Origin: a virus
Virus record (IMG/VR): IMGVR_UViG_3300007541_000101
Span: 1 to 32,336 of that record
DNA length: 32,336 nt
Direction: 5' to 3' (one strand)
Part shown: positions 2,321 through 32,336 of the stretch, piece after piece
How positions within the stretch are numbered: position 1 is the stretch's first letter
Layout of the letters: every line of letters starts with the position of its first letter
Program-made: the position numbers and the translations under genes
Notes under the pieces: generated by a model
What the model was told of the DNA's origin: nothing
Seen by the model: the letters and a program-made list of their open reading frames with translations, nothing else
Database searches by the model: none

Positions 2321-2335
2321 GGCTGACTCCTGTGT

Positions 2336-2350
2336 GCGGCTCGGCGCCGC
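2336..2350 (-). promoter_or_regulatory. Leader hairpin with GCCGA loop (copy 3)
   Basis: In the minus-strand transcript this reads GCGGC-GCCGA-GCCGC: a 5-bp stem with a 5-base loop. It ends 15 bases before the start codon and is followed by CACACAGGAGTCAGCC. Stem sequence differs from copies 1 and 2 but the loop and the ribosome-binding site are the same, as expected for a conserved RNA element. Confidence 0.7.
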
Positions 2351-2355
2351 GTGCC

Positions 2356-2374
2356 TGGCCCCAGCATGGGGCAC
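2356..2374 (-). promoter_or_regulatory. Inverted repeat at predicted transcript start (copy 3)
   Basis: The minus strand reads GTGCCCCATGCTGGGGCCA, matching the plus-strand inverted repeat at 8146-8164 at 17 of 19 positions. It begins 6 bases after the -10 box, the same spacing as at 8146. It could be an operator or a 5'-terminal RNA hairpin. Confidence 0.7.
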
Positions 2375-3388: not shown

Positions 3389-3774
3389 CGGCAGCCCCCC
3401 ACGCACCGCGTGCCACGCTCGACTGGCGTGCCGCAGTCTTTGCAGCGCGGCCTGTCCGGCCAGCCCAGCGTCTCACGCGCCACCTTTGACAGCTCGTCCC
3501 GCCCTTCGCACACGCCGAAGTCGACGCTGTCAGTACCCCACGGCAAGCAGTCAACGGTGGCAATCTGCTCGAGCCCCTCGCGCAGGTGGTCGCACAGGTC
3601 TAGCGCTGCCTCGAGTGCGTTGGCCGCCTCGCGCATGCGCAGCTGCGCCTCGCGCAGGTCGCTGATGTGCTGGCCCTGCCATTGCCTCATCTTCGCCACC
3701 AGCTTGCGGTGCGCAGCCGTGGTGTGGCGCGTCACCTTGCGTGCAGCCGCGCCTGTCTTTGTGTCACCTGGCAT
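3385..3774 (-). CDS. Helical protein with C-terminal zinc ribbon
   Basis: The 129-residue product starts MPGDTKTGAAARKVTRHTTA after an AGGAGG ribosome-binding site. Residues 25-80 are a long amphipathic helix region (REAQLRMREAANALEAALDL). The C-terminus contains CKDCG...C-x3-C, four cysteines suited to a zinc ribbon. Coiled coil plus zinc ribbon suggests a nucleic-acid or protein adaptor; no specific family was recognised. It overlaps the CsrA-like gene by 11 bases. Confidence 0.65.
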   Translation of the reverse strand: MPGDTKTGAAARKVTRHTTAAHRKLVAKMRQWQGQHISDLREAQLRMREAANALEAALDLCDHLREGLEQIATVDCLPWGTDSVDFGVCEGRDELSKVARETLGWPDRPRCKDCGTPVERGTRCVGGCR

Positions 3775-3952
3775 TGGTCGCCTCCTGCCGCCCTTGCGGC
3801 ATTGGAACCCGTTCGATGCGAATGTCGCGCGGCAGGTCAATGGCCAGCCGGATGGTGCCGTCCTTGCGGCGGCTGACATGCAGCACGCCGATGGGCACGC
3901 CATCGCGCGACAGCACCACCTGCTGCTCGTCCTTGACTGTCACCACTAGCAT
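3764..3952 (-). CDS. csrA: CsrA/RsmA-like RNA-binding regulator
   Basis: The 62-residue protein starts MLVVTVKDEQQVVLSRDGVP and continues with strands ending IRLAIDLPRDIRIERVP. This matches the CsrA pattern: MLxLTR start, V.I.....V.V, then QVRLGIxAPxxxxVxR. CsrA dimers bind GGA motifs in mRNA leaders and block or protect them. The usual Arg after the first strand (LTR) is Val here, so RNA specificity may differ from host CsrA. It has a perfect AGGAGGTGGCAC ribosome-binding site. In the genome context it could act on the four conserved leaders with GGAGTCA sites or titrate host regulatory RNAs. Confidence 0.75.
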   Translation of the reverse strand: MLVVTVKDEQQVVLSRDGVPIGVLHVSRRKDGTIRLAIDLPRDIRIERVPMPQGRQEATNAR

Positions 3953-4389
3953 GTGCCACCTCCTGCCCCTGTAGCGCCGCCGCCCCCACTCTGACGGTGA
4001 GCAGGGGCGGCGGCAGGGGAGGCCAGCGGGTTGCCGCTGCTGGTGCTGGCCGCATCATGCGACGGTGCCTCGACACCAGCGGAGTCGGCGCCAAGTGTAC
4101 CAGCCCTGCGCGGCCATTGATAGCCGTGCCCTGCCCTGGCCTGCAGCTCGGCGGCACGGTCAACCAGCACCGCCAGCTCCTCAATGAGCCGAAGGTCAGG
4201 CACAAGCAGCTCGGTGCCCTCTTGGTCACCGTTGTCGCTGCAGGCGTTCAGCTCGCTTTCGACTGCACCCATTGCCGTGTTCAGCGCCTCTGCGAGCATG
4301 GCCACCTGCCTGCCGTCAACCTGCAGGCACAGCTCGACCACGCGGCCACGCTGCAGCAGGCGGAACCCTGTAACCTCGAATGCACTCAT
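3946..4389 (-). CDS. Unknown protein with disordered Ser/Ala/Gly-rich tail
   Basis: This 147-residue protein starts MSAFEVTGFRLLQRGRVVEL, overlapping the previous stop as ATGA. The first 90 residues appear folded, alternating strand and helix (QVDGRQVAMLAEALNTAMGA, LLVPDLRLIEELAVLVDRAA). The last 50 are low complexity and probably disordered, ending GGGGATGAGGGTC. No family was recognised. It is coupled upstream to the 4386 gene and downstream to the CsrA-like gene. Confidence 0.6.
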   Translation of the reverse strand: MSAFEVTGFRLLQRGRVVELCLQVDGRQVAMLAEALNTAMGAVESELNACSDNGDQEGTELLVPDLRLIEELAVLVDRAAELQARAGHGYQWPRRAGTLGADSAGVEAPSHDAASTSSGNPLASPAAAPAHRQSGGGGATGAGGGTC

Positions 4390-4880
4390 GGCTGCCAGCC
4401 CTCCGGCATGGTGCATCGCGCCAGCACCATGAGCGCCTTCGAGTCGCTCCAGTCCTGCACGCGCGCTGGCAGCTGCGCGCTGCCCAGCATGCGCATGGCA
4501 CGCAGGCTCTGCACCGCCTGCGCCACATTGGTGCGCGGCTGCGTGAGCAGCCATGCACGCGCAGCCTCGGCCTCGGCCTTGCGCTCGTCCTCCTGCCGTG
4601 CGCGACGGGTTTCAGCGCTCTCTGCGCGTGGCGCCGCCTGGCTGGAGCCGCTGTTGGCGATGCGCCTGTAGTGCTCGAGCAGGTCAGCCAGCCGGAACAC
4701 GGTGCTGCTGTCCGCGCACCTGTAGCTCTCGACTGCTGCGTTCAGCCAGTCCATGCGCAGGCTGGACAGCCTGTTGGCAATGAGCGCACGCTCCGCATCG
4801 GTGGGCTGGTACTTGGGCCACAGGCCCGTGATGCGCTCACGCACCGTTGCCCAGGTTGGGCGGTCTTCGGTCACAGCCAT
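4386..4880 (-). CDS. Replication-module protein, possible helicase-loader-like partner
   Basis: The product is 164 residues, starting MAVTEDRPTWATVRERITGL with AGGAAAGG upstream. It is helical: an N-terminal region with WPKYQPTDAERALIANRLSS, a central charged coil (ETRRARQEDERKAEAEAARA) and a C-terminal MVLARCTMPEGW. It directly follows the replication-initiator gene with a 10-base overlap, the position of lambda-P-type or other loader proteins. That placement is the only basis for the possible role; no Walker motif is visible, so it is not a DnaC-type ATPase. Confidence 0.5.
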   Translation of the reverse strand: MAVTEDRPTWATVRERITGLWPKYQPTDAERALIANRLSSLRMDWLNAAVESYRCADSSTVFRLADLLEHYRRIANSGSSQAAPRAESAETRRARQEDERKAEAEAARAWLLTQPRTNVAQAVQSLRAMRMLGSAQLPARVQDWSDSKALMVLARCTMPEGWQP

Positions 4881-5314
4881 GCCTTTCCTCCCTTGCGCGG
4901 CGCGCGCACACTCTTGTCTTCTCTACTCTCCTCTTCTCTAGGTGTCCGCTCTGTATTCCCGCCTGCCGCCTTCCGCTTTCGGTGGTTGCTGACAGCTCGA
5001 GCGACCTGCGCCCTGTGCTTGGCGGTCTGTCCGTTATGCTCACCGTAACGCGGCAGCATGACGCCATTGTCGCTCACCTGCAGCCAGTCGAGCTGCTGCA
5101 GCGCGGCGCTGAAACCGCCCTGCCCCACAAGCTCGTCCACCGCCTTGGGCGACACCAGCGTCAGCAGGCCGTCCGTGCTGTGCATGTCCGCATAGCTCCA
5201 CAGGCGCACCAGCATGCCCACCGCGTGCGGCACATGCACGGCCAGCTCGGTGGCCAGCCACAGCACGCGCGGGTCTTCGTGCAGGTTCGTCCTCACCTTG
5301 ATCCAGCTACTCAT
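4871..5314 (-). CDS. Phage replication initiator, replisome-organiser-like N-terminal domain
   Basis: The 147-residue protein starts MSSWIKVRTNLHEDPRVLWL at an ATG overlapping the previous stop as ATGA. The N-terminal 110 residues fit the winged-helix domain of phage replication initiators: W-I-K-V-x-T start, MLVRLWSYADMHSTDGLLTL, LVGQGGFSAALQQLDWLQ and LPRYGEHNGQTAKHRAQVAR. The C-terminal 30 residues are a charged linker encoded by a purine-rich tract that may hold the origin. Lambda O has the same layout, with origin iterons inside the gene. It is shorter than lambda O and lacks an obvious separate C-terminal partner domain, which the next gene may supply. Confidence 0.7.
   Translation of the reverse strand: MSSWIKVRTNLHEDPRVLWLATELAVHVPHAVGMLVRLWSYADMHSTDGLLTLVSPKAVDELVGQGGFSAALQQLDWLQVSDNGVMLPRYGEHNGQTAKHRAQVARAVSNHRKRKAAGGNTERTPREEESREDKSVRAPRKGGKAWL
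4911..4940. other. Candidate replication origin: purine/pyrimidine tract inside the initiator gene
   Basis: Within the 3' part of the initiator gene a 30-base run is almost purely pyrimidine on the plus strand. It includes a 9-base direct repeat TCTTCTCTA at 4917-4925 and 4932-4940 (15-base period). It is much more AT-rich than its surroundings and forces rare AGA codons in the linker. Strand-asymmetric, AT-richer repeats inside an initiator gene resemble lambdoid origins. Only two repeats are clear, so this is a candidate. Confidence 0.4.
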
Positions 5315-5562
5315 GCGTCGTTCCTTTCTTCCTTGAGCTGCTGCCACAGCCGCCCCACGCACAGCATGGTGCAGGCGGCATGCACCGCAACCAGGTTGGC
5401 GTTGAGCACCACGCAGCCAGCGTCGGCTGGCGGGTTGGCAAGTATCCGCGTGTGGCGCAGGAACTCGACCATCTCTTCGTGGGACATGCCCAGCAGCCAG
5501 CTGCGGAGGTGGGCCTCTTCCTGGTCAACTCCGGCCACAATCTGCGCCTCGTCTTTGTTCAT
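5311..5562 (-). CDS. Small acidic helical protein, unknown
   Basis: This 83-residue protein starts MNKDEAQIVAGVDQEEAHLR, overlapping the previous stop as ATGA and the initiator start as ATGA. It is acidic at the N-terminus and has a moderately hydrophobic helix in the second half (VAVHAACTMLCVGRLWQQL). No motif was recognised. Tight coupling to the initiator gene places it in the replication operon. Confidence 0.6.
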   Translation of the reverse strand: MNKDEAQIVAGVDQEEAHLRSWLLGMSHEEMVEFLRHTRILANPPADAGCVVLNANLVAVHAACTMLCVGRLWQQLKEERNDA

Positions 5563-5930
5563 TGCCTGCCTCCTCTCAAGCACCTGACGGCCACCACGAA
5601 CCGCACGGCGCGGCGCACCATGTCGAAGCGGAGGTCAGGGCACAGCTGCTCCCACAAGAGTTCAATGGCGTCCAGCTCCTCCGGCTCGAGCTTGAGCGCC
5701 CTGCACAGCCGCGCGCGCGGCACGCCTGCTGGCGTACACATGAGGTCGAACGCAATGCCCGCCTGCACGAATGCCGCAGGCAGCCCAGCCTCGTCACCCA
5801 GGGCGCGCCCTGCCTCGAGCGCCTCGGCCAGCCGCACGCGGCCAGCCCGTGCGCCCAGGGCGGTGCGGAGGGCTGCGCCCTCCACACCACCCTCGGCCAG
5901 CGTGGGTCTGCCATTAGAACGGCAGCTCAT
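5559..5930 (-). CDS. Alanine-rich helical protein, unknown
   Basis: The 123-residue product starts at the ATG at 5930, overlapping the end of the ERF gene by 17 bases. It is alanine- and arginine-rich and helical. The stretch GVPRARLCRALKLEPEELDA followed by IELLWEQLCPDL may be a helix-turn-helix-like region, but the match is weak. No other in-frame start with a better ribosome-binding site was seen. Function unknown. Confidence 0.6.
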   Translation of the reverse strand: MSCRSNGRPTLAEGGVEGAALRTALGARAGRVRLAEALEAGRALGDEAGLPAAFVQAGIAFDLMCTPAGVPRARLCRALKLEPEELDAIELLWEQLCPDLRFDMVRRAVRFVVAVRCLRGGRQ

Positions 5931-6768
5931 CGGCCACCTCCTCCGCAGGCGCCAGCGCCTTGATGCTGCGCATCACGGGCGTGAGCTCACCACGCATGAT
6001 GTACTCGACCTCGGCCATGCCGCCTGCCAGCGGCACCACCTGGATGCACATGGCATCAGGCACCACCACCTGCCGCACACCCGTGGGGCCGTCGAGCGTT
6101 GCCACCGTCCAGTCTCGGCCACCGTGGGTCTGCTTCTCGAGCTGCTGCACGCACACCTGCTCACGCACCAGCTGCTCCGCTTGCGGAGCCTGCGGCGCCT
6201 TGAGCTTGGCGTTGAGCTGCTCGAGCTGGCTGGGCGCCGCGCGCGGAGCCGGAGGCTGCTGCCTGAACCCGACGCTGGGCGGCTGCCCCTTGGGGTCATC
6301 ATTGCGCCTGTCCATGCTGCCGTCCTCGTCCTCGCGCGGCAGCAGCAGCAGGTCACGCAGGAAGTAGCCCATGCTGGTGGTGAGCGCGCCAGCCAGCGCC
6401 TTGTCGACCGGACGGCCCTTTTCCACCACCACCAGCCAGGGGCATTGGAAGCTCATCACGCTGTTGCTGGCAGGGTGCTGCAGCAGGAACTCGCTGGCCA
6501 CGGTCTGCCCGTCAGGTGACAGCTCCCACCCAATGCGGCTGAAGACCAGGCCCGCGCCGTGCAGCGCCTGGCGGCACGCGGCAATCATGCCCTCGGCGCT
6601 CGTGTAGCTGTACTTGTGGAACTGGTTGCGCGCATCCTTGCCCACGCCATTGATGCTGGCCTGCGCCACCAGCAGCGCGCCTGCCAGGCTCTGCGGCACC
6701 TCGAGCGCTGGTGCCTGGGTTGGCTGCGTGGTGTCGGCCTGTCCGGCCTGCTTGCGGTTACTCGCCAT
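5914..6768 (-). CDS. ERF-family single-strand annealing protein
   Basis: The 284-residue protein starts MASNRKQAGQADTTQ behind AGGAGGTCAACG. Residues 28-165 fit the ERF domain: LAGALLVAQASINGVGKDAR, then F-H-K-Y-x-Y and AEGMIAACRQALHGAGLVFS, and later MGYFLRDLLLLPREDEDG. A Pro/Gln/Ala-rich linker follows, and a separate C-terminal domain from about residue 225 contains RDWTVATLDGPTGVRQVVVP. ERF proteins bind single-stranded DNA and anneal complementary strands in phage recombination. The gene overlaps the upstream exonuclease by 11 bases, giving the expected exonuclease/annealase pair. Longer upstream starts run through the exonuclease gene in another frame and were rejected. Confidence 0.85.
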   Translation of the reverse strand: MASNRKQAGQADTTQPTQAPALEVPQSLAGALLVAQASINGVGKDARNQFHKYSYTSAEGMIAACRQALHGAGLVFSRIGWELSPDGQTVASEFLLQHPASNSVMSFQCPWLVVVEKGRPVDKALAGALTTSMGYFLRDLLLLPREDEDGSMDRRNDDPKGQPPSVGFRQQPPAPRAAPSQLEQLNAKLKAPQAPQAEQLVREQVCVQQLEKQTHGGRDWTVATLDGPTGVRQVVVPDAMCIQVVPLAGGMAEVEYIMRGELTPVMRSIKALAPAEEVADELPF

Positions 6769-7579
6769 CGTTGACCTCCTGTGTGGTGAATGCCCACTCG
6801 GGCATGAGCAGCGTCTGCACCGTCGAGCTGTAGCCTGGCCAGGTGTCCTCGGCCTGGCACCGCGTGAGCAGCTCGAGCAGCCTGGGCAGCGTGGCCTCCT
6901 CGCGCACCAGGTCTGCGTGGTGCAGGTGGTACATGGCTGCGCAGTAGGGGCGCTGCTTCTCGACTGCCACCAGCACGGTGGGGCTGTCCCAGCTGCCAAT
7001 GCCGTTGACCAGCATGAGCCGTCGGTAGAACGCCATCTGCAGCAGGTAGCCGAAGTCCACCACGGAACGGGTGAACGCACGCGGGCTGGCCGATTGGCAG
7101 GTCTTCACATCGACCAGCAGGCCGCTGGTTGAGTTACACGCATCGATGCGCGCCTTGCACGGGTAGCCGTCCACCTCGCCTGTCAGCACCACCTCGCGCA
7201 TGTCGCACTCGCGCAGCAGCGTGGCCGTGCTGGTGCGGGCAATGCCACGCGCCATGCCGTTGACCATGGCGGCGTCGATGTGCGTGAGCGCCGTCTGCCC
7301 CTGCGCCTCGCACCGCGTGGTGAACTCCTCCCACGCAGCGCGCCCCTCCTTCGTTCGGCGGTCGACCTGCGGCGCCACCGCGTAGCGCTGGTCGTACAGC
7401 TCCGGCTCCAGCACAGCTGTGTGCAGCGCGCGGCCCACCCGCAACGCTTCGGTGTCGACTGGCTCCTGCATGCGCGCCTGCAGGTGCGCTGGCGTCTGCC
7501 TCGCCAGCACCTTGAGCCAGCTGGCCCTGGTGCCAGGCAGCGCCTGGTACTCCTCGTCTGTCATGCCACGGTGAATCAT
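6758..7579 (-). CDS. RecE-like PDDEXK exonuclease
   Basis: This 273-residue protein starts MIHRGMTDEEYQALPGTRAS. It has the phage RecE/DUF3799-type signature: GRALHTAVLEPE (His53), a conserved Asp in CKARIDAC (Asp146), LVDVKT with Asp157 and Lys159, and QMAFYRRL (Gln181, Tyr185). These are the metal-binding and catalytic residues of PDDEXK exonucleases that resect double-stranded ends and hand 3' single strands to an annealing protein. The ERF gene follows immediately. I chose the ATG at 7579, 12 bases after the ATG at 7591, because GGAGTCAAGC is its ribosome-binding site, matching the other leaders. Confidence 0.85.
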   Translation of the reverse strand: MIHRGMTDEEYQALPGTRASWLKVLARQTPAHLQARMQEPVDTEALRVGRALHTAVLEPELYDQRYAVAPQVDRRTKEGRAAWEEFTTRCEAQGQTALTHIDAAMVNGMARGIARTSTATLLRECDMREVVLTGEVDGYPCKARIDACNSTSGLLVDVKTCQSASPRAFTRSVVDFGYLLQMAFYRRLMLVNGIGSWDSPTVLVAVEKQRPYCAAMYHLHHADLVREEATLPRLLELLTRCQAEDTWPGYSSTVQTLLMPEWAFTTQEVNDGE

Positions 7580-7591
7580 GCTTGACTCCAT

Positions 7592-7606
7592 GCGGCTCGG
7601 CGCCGC
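7592..7606 (-). promoter_or_regulatory. Leader hairpin with GCCGA loop (copy 4)
   Basis: On the minus strand this reads GCGGC-GCCGA-GCCGC, identical to copy 3, and is followed by ATGGAGTCAAGC and the exonuclease start. Unlike the other copies, no sigma70 promoter is visible just upstream, so it would act within a longer transcript from the 8074 promoter. Confidence 0.65.
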
Positions 7607-7613
7607 CACCCCA

Positions 7614-7628
7614 TGCGCAGAATGCGCA
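7614..7628 (-). promoter_or_regulatory. Inverted repeat upstream of leader hairpin copy 4
   Basis: TGCGCA is repeated after 3 bases; since TGCGCA is its own reverse complement, this is an inverted repeat with the same 3-base spacer as the repeats at 8024 and 8146 (TGC-S-CCA half-sites). It lies 7 bases from the GCCGA-loop hairpin, similar to the 4-6 bases at the other copies. Confidence 0.45.
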
Positions 7629-7986: not shown

Positions 7987-8000
7987 TGCCTGACTCCTGC

Positions 8001-8017
8001 ACGGCATCGGCTGCCGT
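8001..8017 (-). promoter_or_regulatory. Leader hairpin with GCCGA loop (copy 1)
   Basis: The minus strand reads ACGGCAGCCGATGCCGT: a 6-bp stem with loop GCCGA, followed by GCAGGAGTCAGGCA and the start codon at 7986. The 17 bases are identical to copy 2 on the opposite strand. Confidence 0.8.
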
Positions 8018-8023
8018 AGGCCA

Positions 8024-8040
8024 TGCGCCAGGGTGGCGCA
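8024..8040 (-). promoter_or_regulatory. Inverted repeat at predicted transcript start (copy 1)
   Basis: The minus strand reads TGCGCCACCCTGGCGCA, with 7-base arms and a 3-base spacer. It starts 5 bases after the -10 box. The half-site TGCGCCA differs from TGCCCCA of copies 2 and 3 at one base. It may be an operator or a 5'-terminal RNA stem. Confidence 0.7.
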
Positions 8041-8045
8041 GCACC

Positions 8046-8074
8046 ACCATAGGGCATGGCTGGCAGCCTGTCAA
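8046..8074 (-). promoter_or_regulatory. Sigma70-like leftward early promoter
   Basis: TTGACA at 8074-8069, a 17-base spacer and TATGGT at 8051-8046 on the minus strand. The -35 is consensus and the -10 matches 4 of 6. It faces away from the rightward promoter 38 bases away and drives the replication operon starting at 7986. Confidence 0.8.
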
Positions 8075-8111: not shown

Positions 8112-8139
8112 TTGACACAGGTTGCGGCTGCTGTACAAT
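8112..8139 (+). promoter_or_regulatory. Sigma70-like rightward early promoter
   Basis: TTGACA at 8112-8117, a 16-base spacer and TACAAT at 8134-8139. This is the best promoter match in the window (6/6 and 5/6). It drives the only plus-strand operon, starting at 8201. Confidence 0.85.
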
Positions 8140-8145
8140 GTGCCC

Positions 8146-8164
8146 GTGCCCCATGCTGGGGCAC
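8146..8164 (+). promoter_or_regulatory. Inverted repeat at predicted transcript start (copy 2)
   Basis: GTGCCCCATGCTGGGGCAC: perfect 8-base arms around TGC, starting 6 bases after the -10 box. The transcript would begin at or next to its first base. Nearly the same sequence is at 2374-2356 on the other strand. Confidence 0.75.
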
Positions 8165-8168
8165 GGCC

Positions 8169-8185
8169 ACGGCAGCCGATGCCGT
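8169..8185 (+). promoter_or_regulatory. Leader hairpin with GCCGA loop (copy 2)
   Basis: ACGGCAGCCGATGCCGT, identical to copy 1, followed by ACAGGAGTCAGCGAC and the start codon at 8201. The combination inverted repeat, hairpin, GGAGTCA site is thus present on both divergent transcripts. Confidence 0.8.
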
Positions 8186-8200
8186 ACAGGAGTCAGCGAC

Positions 8201-26991: not shown

Positions 26992-27468
26992 TCAGCCTCC
27001 GGCGCCGCCGCCTGCAACCAGGGTGATAGGTGCCAGCTGCACCAGCTCGGTGGGCTGGCCACCATCAAGGCGCTCGACCTTGTCAGCCACCTGCAGCGCC
27101 GCCAGGTTGTCGCGCTGCATGGCAACCAGCACCTCGATGGCCCGCAGCCTCTCGCGGTCATTGCGGGCGGTGGCCACCACATGGGTGGCCACGCGCGGCA
27201 GGTCGCGCAGCAGCTCGGGTGCCAAGTCCCAGCCGCCATGTATGGCACGGGCCAGCAGGCGCAGGCCAGCCCGCTCATGGGTGGGCGTCACCACCTGCTG
27301 GGCCGCCTGGGGCGCCTGGGCCGCCCAGGGCGCGGCCTGGGCGCCTGGGGCCGCCTGGGGCGCCTGGGGCGCCTGGGCCGCCTGTGGCGCCGCCTGGCCG
27401 CCCTGGCGGCCCTTGGGCGCCCGCTGCTTGCGGCGCCCGCCCTGGGTGCCCTGCTTGCCCTGCCTCAT
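26992..27468 (-). CDS. Putative terminase small subunit with low-complexity N-terminus
   Basis: The 158-residue product starts at an ATG overlapping the previous stop as ATGA, with GGAGGAG five bases upstream (a GTG two codons earlier falls within that site). Residues 1-65 are Arg/Lys/Gln then Ala/Pro/Gln repeats (APQAAQAPQAPQAAPGAQAA). Residues 70-130 are helical (ERAGLRLLARAIHGGWDLAP, ERLRAIEVLVAMQRDNLAAL). Position directly before TerL is the main reason for the call; the DNA-binding helix-turn-helix is not obvious. Confidence 0.6.
   Translation of the reverse strand: MRQGKQGTQGGRRKQRAPKGRQGGQAAPQAAQAPQAPQAAPGAQAAPWAAQAPQAAQQVVTPTHERAGLRLLARAIHGGWDLAPELLRDLPRVATHVVATARNDRERLRAIEVLVAMQRDNLAALQVADKVERLDGGQPTELVQLAPITLVAGGGAGG
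27301..27420. repeat. GC-rich imperfect tandem repeat in the small-terminase gene
   Basis: Variants of GCCTGGGGCGCC recur about ten times in 120 bases. They encode the Ala/Pro/Gln repeat of the N-terminus. Such a region is prone to slippage and to assembly error, and length may vary between isolates. Packaging recognition sites often lie near terS, so a role in DNA recognition is conceivable. Confidence 0.7.
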
Positions 27469-28385
27469 GCCCACTCCTCCAGCCTGCGGCGCATGCTGTC
27501 ATCACCAGCCCAATCACCGCGCAGGCACACCGTCACCATCTCGGCGTCAGGCTGCCGCACCCCACGGCAACCCATGCAGCTGTGGTGTGCCCTGATGGCC
27601 ACCCCAACGGCCAGGGCGCCAATGGCGCCCCCAAGGGTATCGGCTATTTCGCGGGTCAGCCGCTCCTGCAGCTGCGGCCTGTGCGCCAGCACCTCCACCA
27701 GGCGCGGCACCTTGGACAGGCCCACCACCCTGTCGCTGGGCAGGTAGGCCACGGTGGCCGTGCCAACGAACGGCAGCAGGTGGTGCTCACACATGCTGGT
27801 GAACCTGATGCCGCGCACATACACAGCCTGTCCGAACGGCTCGGTGAAGGTGGTGCCCAGCACGCTGGCAGGGTCAACGCCCAGCCCATTGGTCATCTCG
27901 CGCATGGCCTTGACCACACGCCTGGGCGTGTCGCGCAGCCCCTCGCGCGTGGGGTCTTCACCCATGCCCTCGAGCAGCCTGACCACCGCGTCCTCCGGCC
28001 CGTTGCCACGCTCCCACGGGAACTGCAGCCAGGCGCTGACCTGCTCGGCTTGCGGCGCCATGCTGGCTGGGCTGTGCCTCTTGCGATACATGGCATCGCA
28101 GCGCAGGCCAGCCTCGTGGTACGGCTGCATGGTGCGCCCGCTGTCCACCAGGTCATCAACCACCAGCACGCGCTGGCCGTCGGCCTCGAGTGCCAGCAGC
28201 TGGTTCAGGTCTGCCATGGGGAACGCCATCTCGCAGTCCAGCCAGCTTGACACCAGCATGGCCACAGGCCAGCCGCCCATGGGAATGCCGTACACGCAGC
28301 CGATGTCCGCATGCGACCAGCGCTCGGCAATGGCCGCCGCCTGCTCACGCATTTCCCCCCACTCAACTCGCAGCGGCTCGGTCAT
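27465..28385 (-). CDS. folE: Phosphoribosyltransferase fused to GTP cyclohydrolase I
   Basis: The 306-residue protein has two enzymes. Residues 1-125 are a type I phosphoribosyltransferase with the PRPP loop VLVVDDLVDSGRT (73-85) and a WLQFPWE end (119-125) like purine-base transferases. Residues 126-306 are FolE: EDPTREGLRDTPRRVVKAM, then TSMCEHHLLPF with Cys199 and His202, and HHSCMGCRGVR with Cys270 as zinc ligands. FolE converts GTP to dihydroneopterin triphosphate, the first step toward preQ0. The fused domain might salvage a purine base for GTP supply. It overlaps QueE upstream as ATGA and the terminase gene downstream by 4 bases. Confidence 0.9.
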   Translation of the reverse strand: MTEPLRVEWGEMREQAAAIAERWSHADIGCVYGIPMGGWPVAMLVSSWLDCEMAFPMADLNQLLALEADGQRVLVVDDLVDSGRTMQPYHEAGLRCDAMYRKRHSPASMAPQAEQVSAWLQFPWERGNGPEDAVVRLLEGMGEDPTREGLRDTPRRVVKAMREMTNGLGVDPASVLGTTFTEPFGQAVYVRGIRFTSMCEHHLLPFVGTATVAYLPSDRVVGLSKVPRLVEVLAHRPQLQERLTREIADTLGGAIGALAVGVAIRAHHSCMGCRGVRQPDAEMVTVCLRGDWAGDDSMRRRLEEWA

Positions 28386-29029
28386 CGCACCCTCCAGCTC
28401 TTGTGCTGCTGAACCGACAGGCGCCAGTCAGGGTGGCGCCGCACCAGCTGGAGGCACCACTCCATGGTGCGCCTGTCCACCGCCAGGCCGTCGTGCGCTG
28501 GGCTGATGAGCTGGTGGTCTGCCACCACCACGGTGCGAGGTATGGCCTGCCCGTAGCCGCGCACATACTTGACCTCATTCGCGCGGCGCTGCTTGATGGC
28601 ATGCTCGGCCACCTTGGGGCTCACCGTCACCCAGTCAAGCTCGAGGTGGTCAAGGTTGATGCTGCCGTTCGTCTCAATGGCCACGCGCATGCCAGCGTCG
28701 TGCAGCGCGGCACACAGCCTGGCGTCGACCTGCAGCCCAGGCTCACCGCCAGTCAGCACCACCCACGGGCGCCAGCCAGCTGGCGGCTCGCCGCCGATGC
28801 CGTGCCGCAGCTCGTCATGCAGCAGCTGCAGCACCTGCTCAAGCTCGAGCGCGCGCCCGCTCTCAAACTCCGTGTCGCAGTCAAAGCCTCCGGGCGACTT
28901 GTCGCCAGGCTCCACCCTGCAACGCATGTTGCACCCAGTCAGGCGCAGGAACAGGCTCATCTCGCCAGCCCTCATGCCCTCGCCCTGCGGGCTGTAGAAG
29001 CACTCGTTCACCCTGTATGTGTCAGCCAT
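28382..29029 (-). CDS. queE: 7-carboxy-7-deazaguanine synthase QueE
   Basis: The 215-residue protein is a radical-SAM enzyme converting 6-carboxytetrahydropterin to CDG. It shows YSPQGEGMRAGEMSLFLRLT, then cysteines 33, 37 and 51 (C-x3-C-x13-C, the last in FDCDTEF), VVLTGGEPGLQ for SAM and MRVAIETNGS. The third cysteine is displaced by an insertion relative to the usual C-x3-C-x2-C, as in some phage and proteobacterial QueE. It overlaps QueD by 22 bases and the FolE fusion by ATGA. Confidence 0.9.
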   Translation of the reverse strand: MADTYRVNECFYSPQGEGMRAGEMSLFLRLTGCNMRCRVEPGDKSPGGFDCDTEFESGRALELEQVLQLLHDELRHGIGGEPPAGWRPWVVLTGGEPGLQVDARLCAALHDAGMRVAIETNGSINLDHLELDWVTVSPKVAEHAIKQRRANEVKYVRGYGQAIPRTVVVADHQLISPAHDGLAVDRRTMEWCLQLVRRHPDWRLSVQQHKSWRVR

Positions 29030-29421
29030 TGCGCACAGTCCTCCAGCTGGGCCACCACGGTGGCGCTGTCCGTCTCCTGCAGCTCGAGCGCCACCACCTG
29101 CGGCAGCCGCTCATGGCAGCGCTGCAGCAGCAGCGCGGCCAGGCACTCCGCGCTCGTCGGGCACGGCAGCACCACACACTCCGGCACGGCGCACGCCACC
29201 GCGTCCTGGCGCCACGCCAGCGTGCGGTGGTCGAGCTCCTCGAACACGGGCGCGATGGCGGCGTCAATCTCCGCGAACAGCACGCCCACGGCTGCGCTGC
29301 CAGGCTGCACCTGCAGGTGAACCTCCACACCGTATCGGTGCCCATGCAGCCGCGCACACTTGTCCTGCAGCATGTGGTTGCGGTGGGCAGCGTAGAACCG
29401 GAACCGACGCTTGATGATCAC
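29008..29421 (-). CDS. queD: 6-carboxy-5,6,7,8-tetrahydropterin synthase QueD
   Basis: The 137-residue protein starts at a GTG overlapping the QueC stop (GTGA). Zinc ligands His13, His26 and His28 lie in FYAAHRNHML and ARLHGHRYGVEVHL, and catalytic Cys22 lies between them. LDHRTL and the PTSAECLAALLL segment are family features. It makes CPH4 from dihydroneopterin triphosphate, the step between FolE and QueE. Confidence 0.9.
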   Translation of the reverse strand: MIIKRRFRFYAAHRNHMLQDKCARLHGHRYGVEVHLQVQPGSAAVGVLFAEIDAAIAPVFEELDHRTLAWRQDAVACAVPECVVLPCPTSAECLAALLLQRCHERLPQVVALELQETDSATVVAQLEDCAQWLTHTG

Positions 29422-30083
29422 GCTGCACCTCCGCTGGCGTATTCGGTGTGGTCAGGCACGCCCGCCAGCTCGAACGCCTCTCGGCGCTCGACACAGGTGC
29501 CGCACCGCCCGCAATGTATGGCGCCACCCTCGTAGCAGCTCCATGACTTGTGCATGGGTGCGCCCAGCAGGTCGCCGCGCACCACAATGTCGTGCTTCGT
29601 CATCAGCACGAACGGCGCCAGCAGCTCGAACTGGCTGGCGCCCCAGTTCCCCATGCGCACGGCCTGCTGCATGACCTGCATCCACATGGGCCTGCAATCA
29701 GGGTAGATGGCGTGGTCGCCAGCGTGCGCCGCGATTGACACGGCATCCATGTCATGGCTGATCGCCAGGGCCGACGCCAGGCACACGAAGGTGGCGTTGC
29801 GGCTGGGCACCACCGTCTGCTTCATGCTCTCATGCGCATAGTGCCCATGCGGCACGCTGCCGTGCCCAGTCAGCGCGCTGCGCGTGACTGCGCACAGGTC
29901 AACCCTGACCAGCGTGTGCGGCACACCGCAGGCCGCTGCCAGCTCCTGCGCCCAGTCCAGCTCACGCCTGTGACGCTGACCGTAGTCAAAGCTGATGGCA
30001 CGCACCTCATCACCCTGCTCAAGGTGGTGCGTCAACAGCACCGTGCTGTCCAGGCCGCCGCTCAAAGACACGACTACACGCAT
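29418..30083 (-). CDS. queC: 7-cyano-7-deazaguanine (preQ0) synthase QueC
   Basis: The 221-residue protein starts MRVVVSLSGGLDSTVLLTHH. SGGLDS (8-13) is the PP-loop that binds ATP; FDYGQRHRREL and PSRNATFVCLASALA are family motifs. The C-terminal C-x7-C-x2-C-x2-C is the zinc site. It converts CDG to preQ0, the base inserted by DpdA. It overlaps the dpdA stop by 10 bases. Confidence 0.95.
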   Translation of the reverse strand: MRVVVSLSGGLDSTVLLTHHLEQGDEVRAISFDYGQRHRRELDWAQELAAACGVPHTLVRVDLCAVTRSALTGHGSVPHGHYAHESMKQTVVPSRNATFVCLASALAISHDMDAVSIAAHAGDHAIYPDCRPMWMQVMQQAVRMGNWGASQFELLAPFVLMTKHDIVVRGDLLGAPMHKSWSCYEGGAIHCGRCGTCVERREAFELAGVPDHTEYASGGAA

Positions 30084-30919
30084 GCATCCTCCGGTTCCGC
30101 AGGCAGCCTGCCGCGCAGCCTGCTGTACTCGTTCCACACCATGTCGAGGTCTACGCTGCCGCTCAAGTACATGCGCGTGCCCAGGTTGGCGCGCACCTGC
30201 GCCGACACGGCCACATGCGAGGCGACGGTGATGCGGGCCGCCAGGCTGCGCCCGCCTCGCCAGCTGCCGTCCTTGCGCAGGTCTGCAATGTCGTAGCCCA
30301 GCCTGGCGATGCCTGACGCTATGGCTGGGCTGATGCGGCCCACCAGGTCGCTGCGCTGGAACGCCTGCAGCACGCCACCACCAATGTGCAGCTCACACCT
30401 GCCATAGCGCAGGGCGCCCGTGTAGTTCGAGCTATCGCAGCTGTATGGCCGGAGCGCCTTGAGTACCGACAGCCTGTTGACGCCCAGCAGGTGGACGGCC
30501 TGCTTGGCCAGGTGGTCGCGCATGCGCATGAGGTACGGCACGGGCGTCTGCCCCTTGCGCACCAGGCCGCCAATGCACACCACGGGCGAGGTGCTGGCGT
30601 ACTCGGCCAGCGCGTCGGGGCTGTCTCCCCGCGTCCACACGGGCACGGGCTGCAGCCCCTGCGCGCGCATCTCCAGGTAGTTCTGCCTGGTGCGCACAGG
30701 GTCGCCAATGACATCGAGCGCCACATACATGTGCGGGCGCACGGGCAGCGCCTTGAGGAACGCAATGTATTCCTGCAGCACAATGGGCCGCCCTGACTGC
30801 CAGGCTGTAAAGGCGCCGCTGTCCACCATGAGCTCTACGGCGCTGCCCATGCGCGCGATGCCATCGACCGCCTTGGCGTTCAGGTACGGGTATGCGATCA
30901 GCAGGCGCAGCCTACTCAA
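30074..30919 (-). CDS. dpdA: DpdA-type DNA guanine transglycosylase
   Basis: The 281-residue protein is a small tRNA-guanine-transglycosylase relative of the phage DpdA type. MVDSGAFTAW carries the probable catalytic Asp33; MYVALDVIGDP, VVCIGGLVRKG, HLLGVNR and SCDSSNYTGALRYG follow in TGT order. DpdA enzymes swap guanine in DNA for preQ0 or derivatives. It starts at TTG (30919) with GGAG upstream, overlapping the ParB-like stop by 8 bases; no ATG is suitably placed. The C-x-C-x2-C-H zinc site of tRNA TGT is not evident. Adjacent queC, queD, queE and folE strongly support DNA modification. Confidence 0.88.
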   Translation of the reverse strand: MSRLRLLIAYPYLNAKAVDGIARMGSAVELMVDSGAFTAWQSGRPIVLQEYIAFLKALPVRPHMYVALDVIGDPVRTRQNYLEMRAQGLQPVPVWTRGDSPDALAEYASTSPVVCIGGLVRKGQTPVPYLMRMRDHLAKQAVHLLGVNRLSVLKALRPYSCDSSNYTGALRYGRCELHIGGGVLQAFQRSDLVGRISPAIASGIARLGYDIADLRKDGSWRGGRSLAARITVASHVAVSAQVRANLGTRMYLSGSVDLDMVWNEYSRLRGRLPAEPEDACV

Positions 30920-31493
30920 CCACGGCTCCGGCGAACGGCGCCACGGCTGCCCGCACGGCATCGGCCACGGCCTCGCGGTCTGCCTCGTCACAGCGCACCG
31001 TGATGGTGGCTGGTGCAGCGGCTGGTTCCAGCTGTGCCTCGAGCCGCTCCAGCTCGGCCTCCGGCAGCTCCCATGTGCCAATGACCGCCTGCAGCTCACC
31101 CTCGGTGAAGTACGGCGCCAGGTCAACCTCCTGCGCAAGCTTGCCCAGGACGGCTGCGTCCCACTCGGCCAGCTCTGCCGTTCGGTTGTCGGCCACCGCA
31201 TATGCCACGGCCTCGGCGTCAGCCAGGCTGGTGCGCACCGCGTCAATGTGCGTCCAGCCCAGGGCACGCGCCGCCTGCAGCGTGGCGTTGCCTGCCAGCA
31301 CCACGCCATCGGCGCTGACCACAATGGGCCGCTGCTGGCCGAATCGCTCCAGGCTGGCCTGCACCGCCTCGAGGTTGCGCGGCCCGTGCAGCCTGGCGTT
31401 GCGCGGGTCTAGCTGCAGCTCGCCTGTGGCCAGGCGCTCAATGCGGCTCCCTGACCCTCGCGGGCTGTTGTCTGCAGGTACGGTCTTCGCCAT
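30912..31493 (-). CDS. ParB-like protein, first gene of the DNA-modification operon
   Basis: The 193-residue protein has a ParB/Spo0J N-terminal domain: LQLDPRNARLHGPRNLEAVQ, QQRPIVVSADGVVLAGNATL (the G-H/N-x-R-like box), AARALGWTHIDAV and YAVADNRTAELAEWD. The classical ParB helix-turn-helix is not visible; the C-terminus is acidic and Ala-rich. In bacterial Dpd islands a ParB-superfamily protein (DpdB) works with DpdA, so this may be a reduced partner. Alternatives are a DNA-binding regulator or a nuclease. It starts with GGAGG-type spacing after the 31543 promoter. Confidence 0.75.
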   Translation of the reverse strand: MAKTVPADNSPRGSGSRIERLATGELQLDPRNARLHGPRNLEAVQASLERFGQQRPIVVSADGVVLAGNATLQAARALGWTHIDAVRTSLADAEAVAYAVADNRTAELAEWDAAVLGKLAQEVDLAPYFTEGELQAVIGTWELPEAELERLEAQLEPAAAPATITVRCDEADREAVADAVRAAVAPFAGAVVE

Positions 31494-31549: not shown

Positions 31550-32336
31550 CTATCGGCTGACCACCATGCGCAGCGCCAGCAGGTCTGTGTAGGCCAGCCT
31601 GGCGGTGGTGCCTGCGGTCTTGATGAGGCCAACGGTCACACCAGTCTCGCGCCCGCTGCCGCTGGGCAGGCCGCTGGTGGCCTGGTAGACCAGGCTGCCG
31701 TCGATGTAGAAGTCAGCGCCGCTGGCGTCAGCGGCAACCACGATTCGGAAGCTGTGCCAGCTGGTGTCGCCTGGCACGCCCGTGTCCTGGGGGCCAGCCG
31801 ACACGCCCGCGCTGTAGACCTCAACCTGCCAGTTCCCGCTGCCCACGCTGTGCGTGTAGCTGAAGAAAGCTCCATCGAGCGGGTTGGTGGCGTTCCTGCG
31901 GTCGAAAAAGCCCACGCGCGCGCTGAACCCATTGGTGGCGTCCGACAGCGCGCCCAGCCGGAACACGCACAGCAGGTCATGCAAGCTCGTGCCGAATCGC
32001 GTGTCGGCCACGCTGGCGCTGCCCACGCCCGCGTAGCCCGTGGCCGTGGTGCCCGTGCTGTGGCTGATGATGCCCTGGTGGGTGCCGTCGCCCGTGTTCG
32101 AGAAACTGTTGGTCGCGCCTGTGCCTGCGCCGTGGTTGATCCAGTCACCGAAGTTCACGAAGTCGCTGTACAGCTGCACGACGCGCGACCAGTCGGGCAA
32201 CCACTCGAGCTGCAGGCTGCCCTGGGCGCCACCGTCGGTGAGCTGCACATGGTCGCCAGCCGTCAGCTGCCTGGCCTGGGGCAGGTTGCTGGCGCCGCTG
32301 GTGATGAAGCTGGCGGCCTCGAGTGGTGGCAGGTAC
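31550..32336 (-). CDS. Lectin/jelly-roll adhesin, main part of a gene spanning the contig join
   Basis: With the 25 codons at 75-1 this forms a 263-residue protein. The N-terminal 40 residues (MRYLPPLEAASFITSGASNL...) look like a virion-attachment segment. The rest resembles a concanavalin-A-like sandwich: RVVQLYSDFVNFGDWINHGA, LHDLLCVFRLGALSDATNGF, GNWQVEVYSAGVSAGPQDTG, WHSFRIVVAADASGADFYID with GSLVYQ, a typical laminin-G/LamGL pattern. Such domains bind glycans, so it is probably a tail-fibre or receptor-binding protein. No signal peptide is seen. Confidence 0.75.
   Translation of the reverse strand, partial: YLPPLEAASFITSGASNLPQARQLTAGDHVQLTDGGAQGSLQLEWLPDWSRVVQLYSDFVNFGDWINHGAGTGATNSFSNTGDGTHQGIISHSTGTTATGYAGVGSASVADTRFGTSLHDLLCVFRLGALSDATNGFSARVGFFDRRNATNPLDGAFFSYTHSVGSGNWQVEVYSAGVSAGPQDTGVPGDTSWHSFRIVVAADASGADFYIDGSLVYQATSGLPSGSGRETGVTVGLIKTAGTTARLAYTDLLALRMVVSR
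32267..32336. repeat. 70-bp terminal direct repeat, right copy
   Basis: This is the right-hand copy of the 70-base sequence at 1-70. It lies inside the coding frame of the lectin-like adhesin gene in both copies, so trimming one copy restores a single intact gene. Confidence 0.95.

Follow-up and report, generated by a model that had tools for sequence, protein, structure and literature searches.

A divergent CsrA-family gene and a probable leader pseudoknot in a clade of uncultivated phages

Does a small open reading frame (ORF) behind the replication genes of an uncultivated phage encode a CsrA-like regulator, and does this regulator control the hairpin-bearing leaders of the same genome? 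The question is raised by positions 3764-3952 (-) of the viral DNA described here, the whole 32,336 nucleotides of which we refer to as ‘the window’. To our knowledge, CsrA homologues of phages are known from surveys, and have hardly been tested. They have been reported in 30 phages (PMC7366521), and a homologue carried by a plasmid, RsmQ, reprograms its host (PMC9928087). The answer that we consider on balance the probable one is that two separate things are present, a core gene of the CsrA family and a cis-acting leader pseudoknot, and that the leaders do not serve as specific CsrA sites.

The window ends as it begins, with an exact direct repeat of 70 bp (1-70 and 32267-32336), and therefore probably represents a complete genome, circular and about 32.27 kb long. 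The 62-aa protein alone, used as a query, found no relatives in viral contigs or in INPHARED; these were reached by way of the terminase, which retrieved 54 related viral contigs, and then by way of the family alignment. In this sample, made up of the terminase-related contigs and of others added afterwards, CsrA-like homologues were identified with the CsrA profile or the family profile in G004, G012, G019, G022, G023, G046, G049, G050, G051 and G052. Because the protein is near-identical among G012, G019, G022 and G050, these amount to about seven lineages beside the window. One of them, G046, first surfaced in an initial pattern scan for leaders whose matches were otherwise mostly due to chance; it is a true relative, with a CsrA-like gene of its own. 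A related terminase (58%) occurs at L258 10001-11119, within a chromosome of Bryobacterales (Acidobacteriota), where it probably belongs to a prophage distantly related to this phage; searched for leader modules, that terminase stretch yielded none.

The ORF starts with ATG behind a good Shine–Dalgarno sequence (Table 1), and scans for the leader module found none in this upstream region. Its translation scores 27.6 bits against the Pfam family CsrA (PF02599), where the cut-off is 27; the six-frame translation match, at 25.7 bits, lies under that cut-off. All nine aligned members of the family match Pfam CsrA (E <= 0.1), and the PDB chains matched by the family profile are exclusively those of CsrA, RsmA and RsmE (E 0.002 to 0.08). 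A phmmer search of the PDB with the single sequence gave no CsrA match, and the scores stay below the equivalog cut-offs of TIGR00202 and NF002469 (21.5 vs 73 and 16 vs 70.1 bits). PHROG 9500 is matched weakly by 5/9 members (best E 0.00018; window protein E 0.012), and the family looks like a separate branch beside it. Judged by these comparisons, the ORF is a real, divergent CsrA-family protein, borderline as a single sequence, and is not an orthologue of bacterial CsrA. That the phage encodes a CsrA-like protein here, as originally predicted, is borne out by the Pfam score, by the agreement of all nine members and by the uniform PDB matches.

R48 of the window protein corresponds to R44 in strand beta-5, the key RNA-binding arginine of CsrA, and is invariant in the family alignment; the equivalents of CsrA R31, P37, K/R38 and V/I42 are among the other invariant positions. 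The arginine of strand beta-1, R6, is missing, as had been noticed at the outset: the window protein has V6, and the members have V, I, A or C there. H43 is lost in all members. The E46 position is occupied by P in the window; E46 is lost in the window and in G046, and kept in most relatives. The salt bridge between R6 and E46 has been described as indispensable in RsmE (PMC6692469). Since R6 and H43 are both lost, RNA binding may be altered. Compared with CsrA, RsmA and RsmE (PF02599), the protein is alike in length and in the strand pattern of its model, and shares the core motif R-x-A/G-x-x-x-P-R/K-x-I/V-x-I/V-x-R, the R44 equivalent included; it differs in the two lost residues, in a longer turn between beta-1 and beta-2, and in falling far under the equivalog cut-offs. 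An AlphaFold2 model of the monomer (pLDDT 83) has three strands, beta-2 to beta-4, and leaves both edge segments free, an arrangement that would fit one protomer of a domain-swapped dimer. The balanced TM-score of this model against CsrA chains is 0.53-0.60; Foldseek gave E about 1, which is not significant, in a list that mixes CsrA with acetyltransferase fragments, and the balanced TM-scores alone were used.

In relatives, the CsrA-like gene lies just behind a replication-initiation-like gene and a conserved gene for a 164-aa protein. Both have counterparts in the window, in a run of genes that also specifies a DUF3799 exonuclease-like protein and ERF (Table 1). In this clade of uncultivated phages, the CsrA-like gene belongs to the core and keeps its syntenic place behind the replication genes. 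Contig G020 stops short of its expected position, which leaves the clade with no known phage that lacks it. A whole clade, in other words, possesses a CsrA-like core gene whose product has a changed RNA-binding edge in every member.

Table 1. Coordinates in the window of the CsrA-like gene, its neighbours and the four leaders
Feature	Position	Strand	Details
CsrA-like protein, 62 aa	3764..3952	-	Pfam match, family alignment, PDB profile matches, AlphaFold2
Upstream region of CsrA-like gene	3953..3970	-	Shine–Dalgarno CAGGAGG
Replication/recombination genes upstream of CsrA-like gene	4386..7579	-	Pfam, PHROGs; order kept in relatives
Leader A	2321..2372	-	hairpin 1 2372-2358; linker GGC 2355-2353; start codon 2320
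Leader A, hairpin 2	2350-2336	-	loop GCCGA 2345-2341; GGAGTCA 2330-2324; hairpin 2 with GGAGTCA 2324-2350
Leader B	7580..7628	-	hairpin 1 7628-7614; start codon 7579 (DUF3799 exonuclease-like gene)
Leader B, hairpin 2	7606-7592	-	loop GCCGA 7601-7597; GGAGTCA 7589-7583; hairpin 2 with GGAGTCA 7583-7606
Promoter of leader C	8046..8074	-	TTGACA, 17 nt, TATGGT; 10/12 consensus matches
Leader C	7987..8040	-	hairpin 1 8040-8024; linker with GGC; start codon 7986
Leader C, hairpin 2	8016-8002	-	loop GCCGA 8011-8007; GGAGTCA 7997-7991; hairpin 2 with GGAGTCA 7991-8016
Promoter of leader D	8112..8139	+	TTGACA, 16 nt, TACAAT; 11/12 consensus matches
Leader D	8144..8200	+	GGAGTCA 8189-8195; start codon 8201
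Leader D, hairpin 1	8144-8166	+	core 8146-8164
Leader D, linker	8165-8167	+	GGC, complementary to loop GCC 8175-8177
Leader D, hairpin 2	8170-8184	+	loop GCCGA 8175-8179; hairpin 2 with GGAGTCA 8170-8195

Four leader modules had been proposed in the window, and four there are: the pattern GCCGA-N-GGAGTCA matches 4 times, with 0.06 matches expected, and a descriptor that includes linker–loop pairing, the Shine–Dalgarno sequence and the start codon returns exactly these four leaders, with 0.05 expected. The layout across the clade is TTGACA, 16-17 nt, TANNNT, hairpin 1, a short linker, hairpin 2 with its pentaloop, a Shine–Dalgarno sequence and ATG. The element, about 60 nt in length, extends from behind a consensus promoter to the start codon, and the position of hairpin 1 is likely to be that of the transcript start. 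Leader A has a weak promoter match only. In leader B (7577-7591, -), the first ATG overlaps the Shine–Dalgarno sequence; 7579 is the more likely start of the exonuclease-like gene, rather than the position further upstream at which the longest ORF begins. A strict scan found about 75 modules, spread over 30 records among which some contigs are present in duplicate, against about 4 for control loops. The window has 4; G012, G022 and G023 have 5 each, G019 has 6, G052 has 5-6 and G051 has 11, and a fragment, G009, has 3. Pattern scans of the viral collection, followed up with a promoter-plus-hairpin test, gave further modules, all of them in contigs of the clade, and the covariance models of Rfam gave no match to the window up to E 1. 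When GCCGA was sought at a fixed distance from the promoter, with pairing not required, a perfect 5-bp stem flanked 39/49 sites; those failures that were listed were out-of-register second copies in the same module, or such a module whose loop was GCAGA. Hairpins that resemble the leader but depart from it in the loop (GGAGA or GCAGA) also occur at L223 about 3965 (-) and 5921 (-), and at L191 12895 (-).

Hairpin 2 has 10 different stems among 33 distinct modules, all of them fully paired in a set for which stem pairing was an entry condition. Its loop is a pentaloop of the form GNNGA (GCCGA, GGCGA, GGTGA, GCTGA and GCAGA were found), and in 32 of 34 distinct modules the first three bases of this loop find their complement in the linker. 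When the loops were permuted, an average of 24.3 modules remained complementary, and 32 was never reached in 5000 trials; shuffling the linkers left 6.2. The linker/loop pairs are compensatory: mostly GGC/GCC, they become GCC/GGC in G004 and G051, and ACC/GGU in G023. Leader B of the window can form the pairing solely as GGU, with a wobble, and the GCAGA loops of two modules break it. Covariation scores were 0.711 for linkers with a 2-nt gap (0.188 shuffled, at most 0.11 slid) and 0.515 for those with a 3-nt gap (0.153, and at most 0.12), but complementarity was an entry condition for these rows and the hairpin stem contributes to the scores, so that loop permutation and linker shuffling are the fair test of linker pairing. 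Two of the three linker–loop pairs vary on both sides in both gap sets, and the third is invariant. The crossing helices comprise 3 and 5 bp, and the loops 2-3 and 2 nt. From these patterns, the leader is probably a 3+5-bp H-type pseudoknot just upstream of the Shine–Dalgarno sequence; the linker–loop and hairpin 2 pairings could, instead, alternate as a switch. A DNA operator in place of an RNA structure is unlikely, as the stem sequences vary with pairing kept while the loop is constant.

If gene and leader are separate, the CsrA-like protein most likely forms a CsrA-type dimer, and would act post-transcriptionally on mRNAs with an accessible GGA, those of the host and possibly those of the phage, perhaps in the manner of the plasmid-borne RsmQ. 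The leaders would be a distinct cis-acting RNA element of the phage gene units, reading from promoter to hairpin near the transcript 5' end to H-type pseudoknot to Shine–Dalgarno sequence, and the pseudoknot would stabilise the mRNA and set or gate its translation. Something similar is known from gene 32 of T4 and T2, a phage mRNA whose leader also contains an H-type pseudoknot and whose translation is controlled (PMC3014915). That leader serves one gene, whereas there are up to 11 copies per genome here, joined to the Shine–Dalgarno sequence and preceded by a 5' hairpin. A review of 2010 could name no viral pseudoknot for translational autoregulation other than that of T4-type gene 32 (PMC3014915). 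Among multi-copy elements at ribosome-binding sites, the nearest are the SAS and ESAS repeats of the cluster K mycobacteriophages, which likewise precede non-structural phage genes (PMC3203893). The SAS is a fixed 13-bp sequence, whereas here there is covariation in the stems and pairing between loop and linker; RNA hairpins are unsupported for the ESAS (PMC3203893). The SAS sequence, GGGATAGGAGCCC, was not found at the start codons of the window leaders, which read CAGGAGTCA or ATGGAGTCA. Occurring up to 11 times per genome, the pseudoknot would amount to a conserved RNA element of phages that Rfam does not list, and its compact form, from promoter to start codon, allows reporter study without phage or host.

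Might the two nevertheless work together? The CsrA-fold protein, deprived of its beta-1 arginine, could have been retooled as a clade-specific trans regulator of the multi-copy leader, reading not GGA but the pseudoknot or the invariant loop G and GA, and although we think this unlikely, several observations point to it. CsrA-like gene and leaders are both present in every phage of the clade in which the relevant region is covered, and the outgroup records (terminase about 51% identical) yielded neither. The loss of R6 and H43 affects all members, and T4, with RegA, already provides a case in which a replication cluster includes the gene of a small repressor (PMC3014915). A working pair would show this pattern, but the co-occurrence belongs to one clade and hence is one event. 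The known mode of CsrA, moreover, is to read GGA, and the clade has other conserved proteins that could equally well be the partner. The analogy with RegA is functional only: both are small phage proteins encoded beside replication genes, but the folds are unrelated, and the targets of RegA are unstructured A+U-rich start regions (PMC3014915).

The original prediction was a different one, namely that the CsrA-like protein controls the leader genes by binding, at the ribosome-binding site, the GGA next to hairpin 2. The GGA itself is where it was said to be, 2-5 nt past the second hairpin stem in all four window leaders, and it follows hairpin 2 in G023, G051 (9/11) and G052 as well. Furthermore, the protein has kept the R44 equivalent, and E. 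coli CsrA is known to block the Shine–Dalgarno sequence of glgC (PMC7652899). As a sign of CsrA regulation, however, this GGA does not hold up. GGA lies upstream of 35 of the 50 candidate starts of the window and ANGGA of 2, by start calls that are crude (hand-picked or longest-ORF) and were used for Shine–Dalgarno usage only, several of the 15 starts without GGA being doubtful calls. GGA is the generic Shine–Dalgarno core of most window genes, leaders included, and the leaders are therefore not specific CsrA sites. CsrA sites read ANGGA, and are best placed in a hairpin loop (PMC7652899, PMC6692469); ANGGA is present in one window leader, the other three read CAGGA, and no hairpin loop of the four contains GGA, that of hairpin 2 being GCCGA throughout. 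The leaders have the Shine–Dalgarno GGA only, not the glgC-like layout in which a loop GGA accompanies it. In G012, G019 and G022, all of which carry the CsrA-like gene, the leader Shine–Dalgarno sequence is AGGGGT, and GGA occurs in none of 16 leaders between the expected transcript start and ATG; these are close relatives, and the 16 are not independent events. One of the two leaders of G049 also lacks GGA. Across the clade, conservation falls on hairpin 1, on the linker and on the hairpin 2 pentaloop, not on GGA; by crude counts, the stretch that follows hairpin 2 seems to track each phage's own Shine–Dalgarno usage. We have rejected GGA as a specific CsrA site in the leaders, and regard control through it as improbable.

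We give slightly less credence again to the idea that the hairpins serve antitermination, in the way of put in HK022 or nut in lambda, and are unrelated to the CsrA-like protein. As in putL, two stem-loops come directly downstream of a promoter, an early promoter in HK022 (PMC9378689), and the GNNGA pentaloop is reminiscent of boxB. This loop is complementary to the linker, however, so that the likeness to boxB is probably accidental, and that reading of the loop was dropped. The put RNA is about 70 nt long and acts on RNA polymerase (PMC9378689), whereas the leader is shorter, has linker–loop pairing, and is always joined to a Shine–Dalgarno sequence. Many units, too, consist of one short gene, several of them with a terminator-like hairpin before the next promoter, which argues against antitermination. 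Tandem units of promoter, leader and small gene are found in relatives at L189 12948-15387 (-), L197 8439-11168 (+) and L230 2092-3662 (+), often with a terminator-like hairpin after the one small gene. Just upstream of TTGACA, these have a conserved TGTCCAA-like box that is absent from the window and may act as an additional promoter or activator element.

That the ORF is an unrelated small protein resembling CsrA by accident is very improbable: the single-sequence score barely above the Pfam cut-off, the failure of phmmer to find CsrA and the Foldseek E-values would all allow it, but the nine members that match CsrA, the PDB matches of the family profile and the invariance of the CsrA core and R44 speak against it.

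Two other features of the window deserve mention. Positions 27465-31324 (-) encode a GTP cyclohydrolase I fused to a phosphoribosyltransferase-like part, QueE-like, QueD and QueC proteins, and a protein like queuine tRNA-ribosyltransferase (DpdA-type), a gene set that is likely to serve 7-deazaguanine DNA modification and is common to the window and G046 only. Beside the terminase, 26992-27474 (-) encodes a small protein with a repeat rich in proline, glutamine and alanine, visible in the DNA as a period of about 9 bp at 27298-27420.
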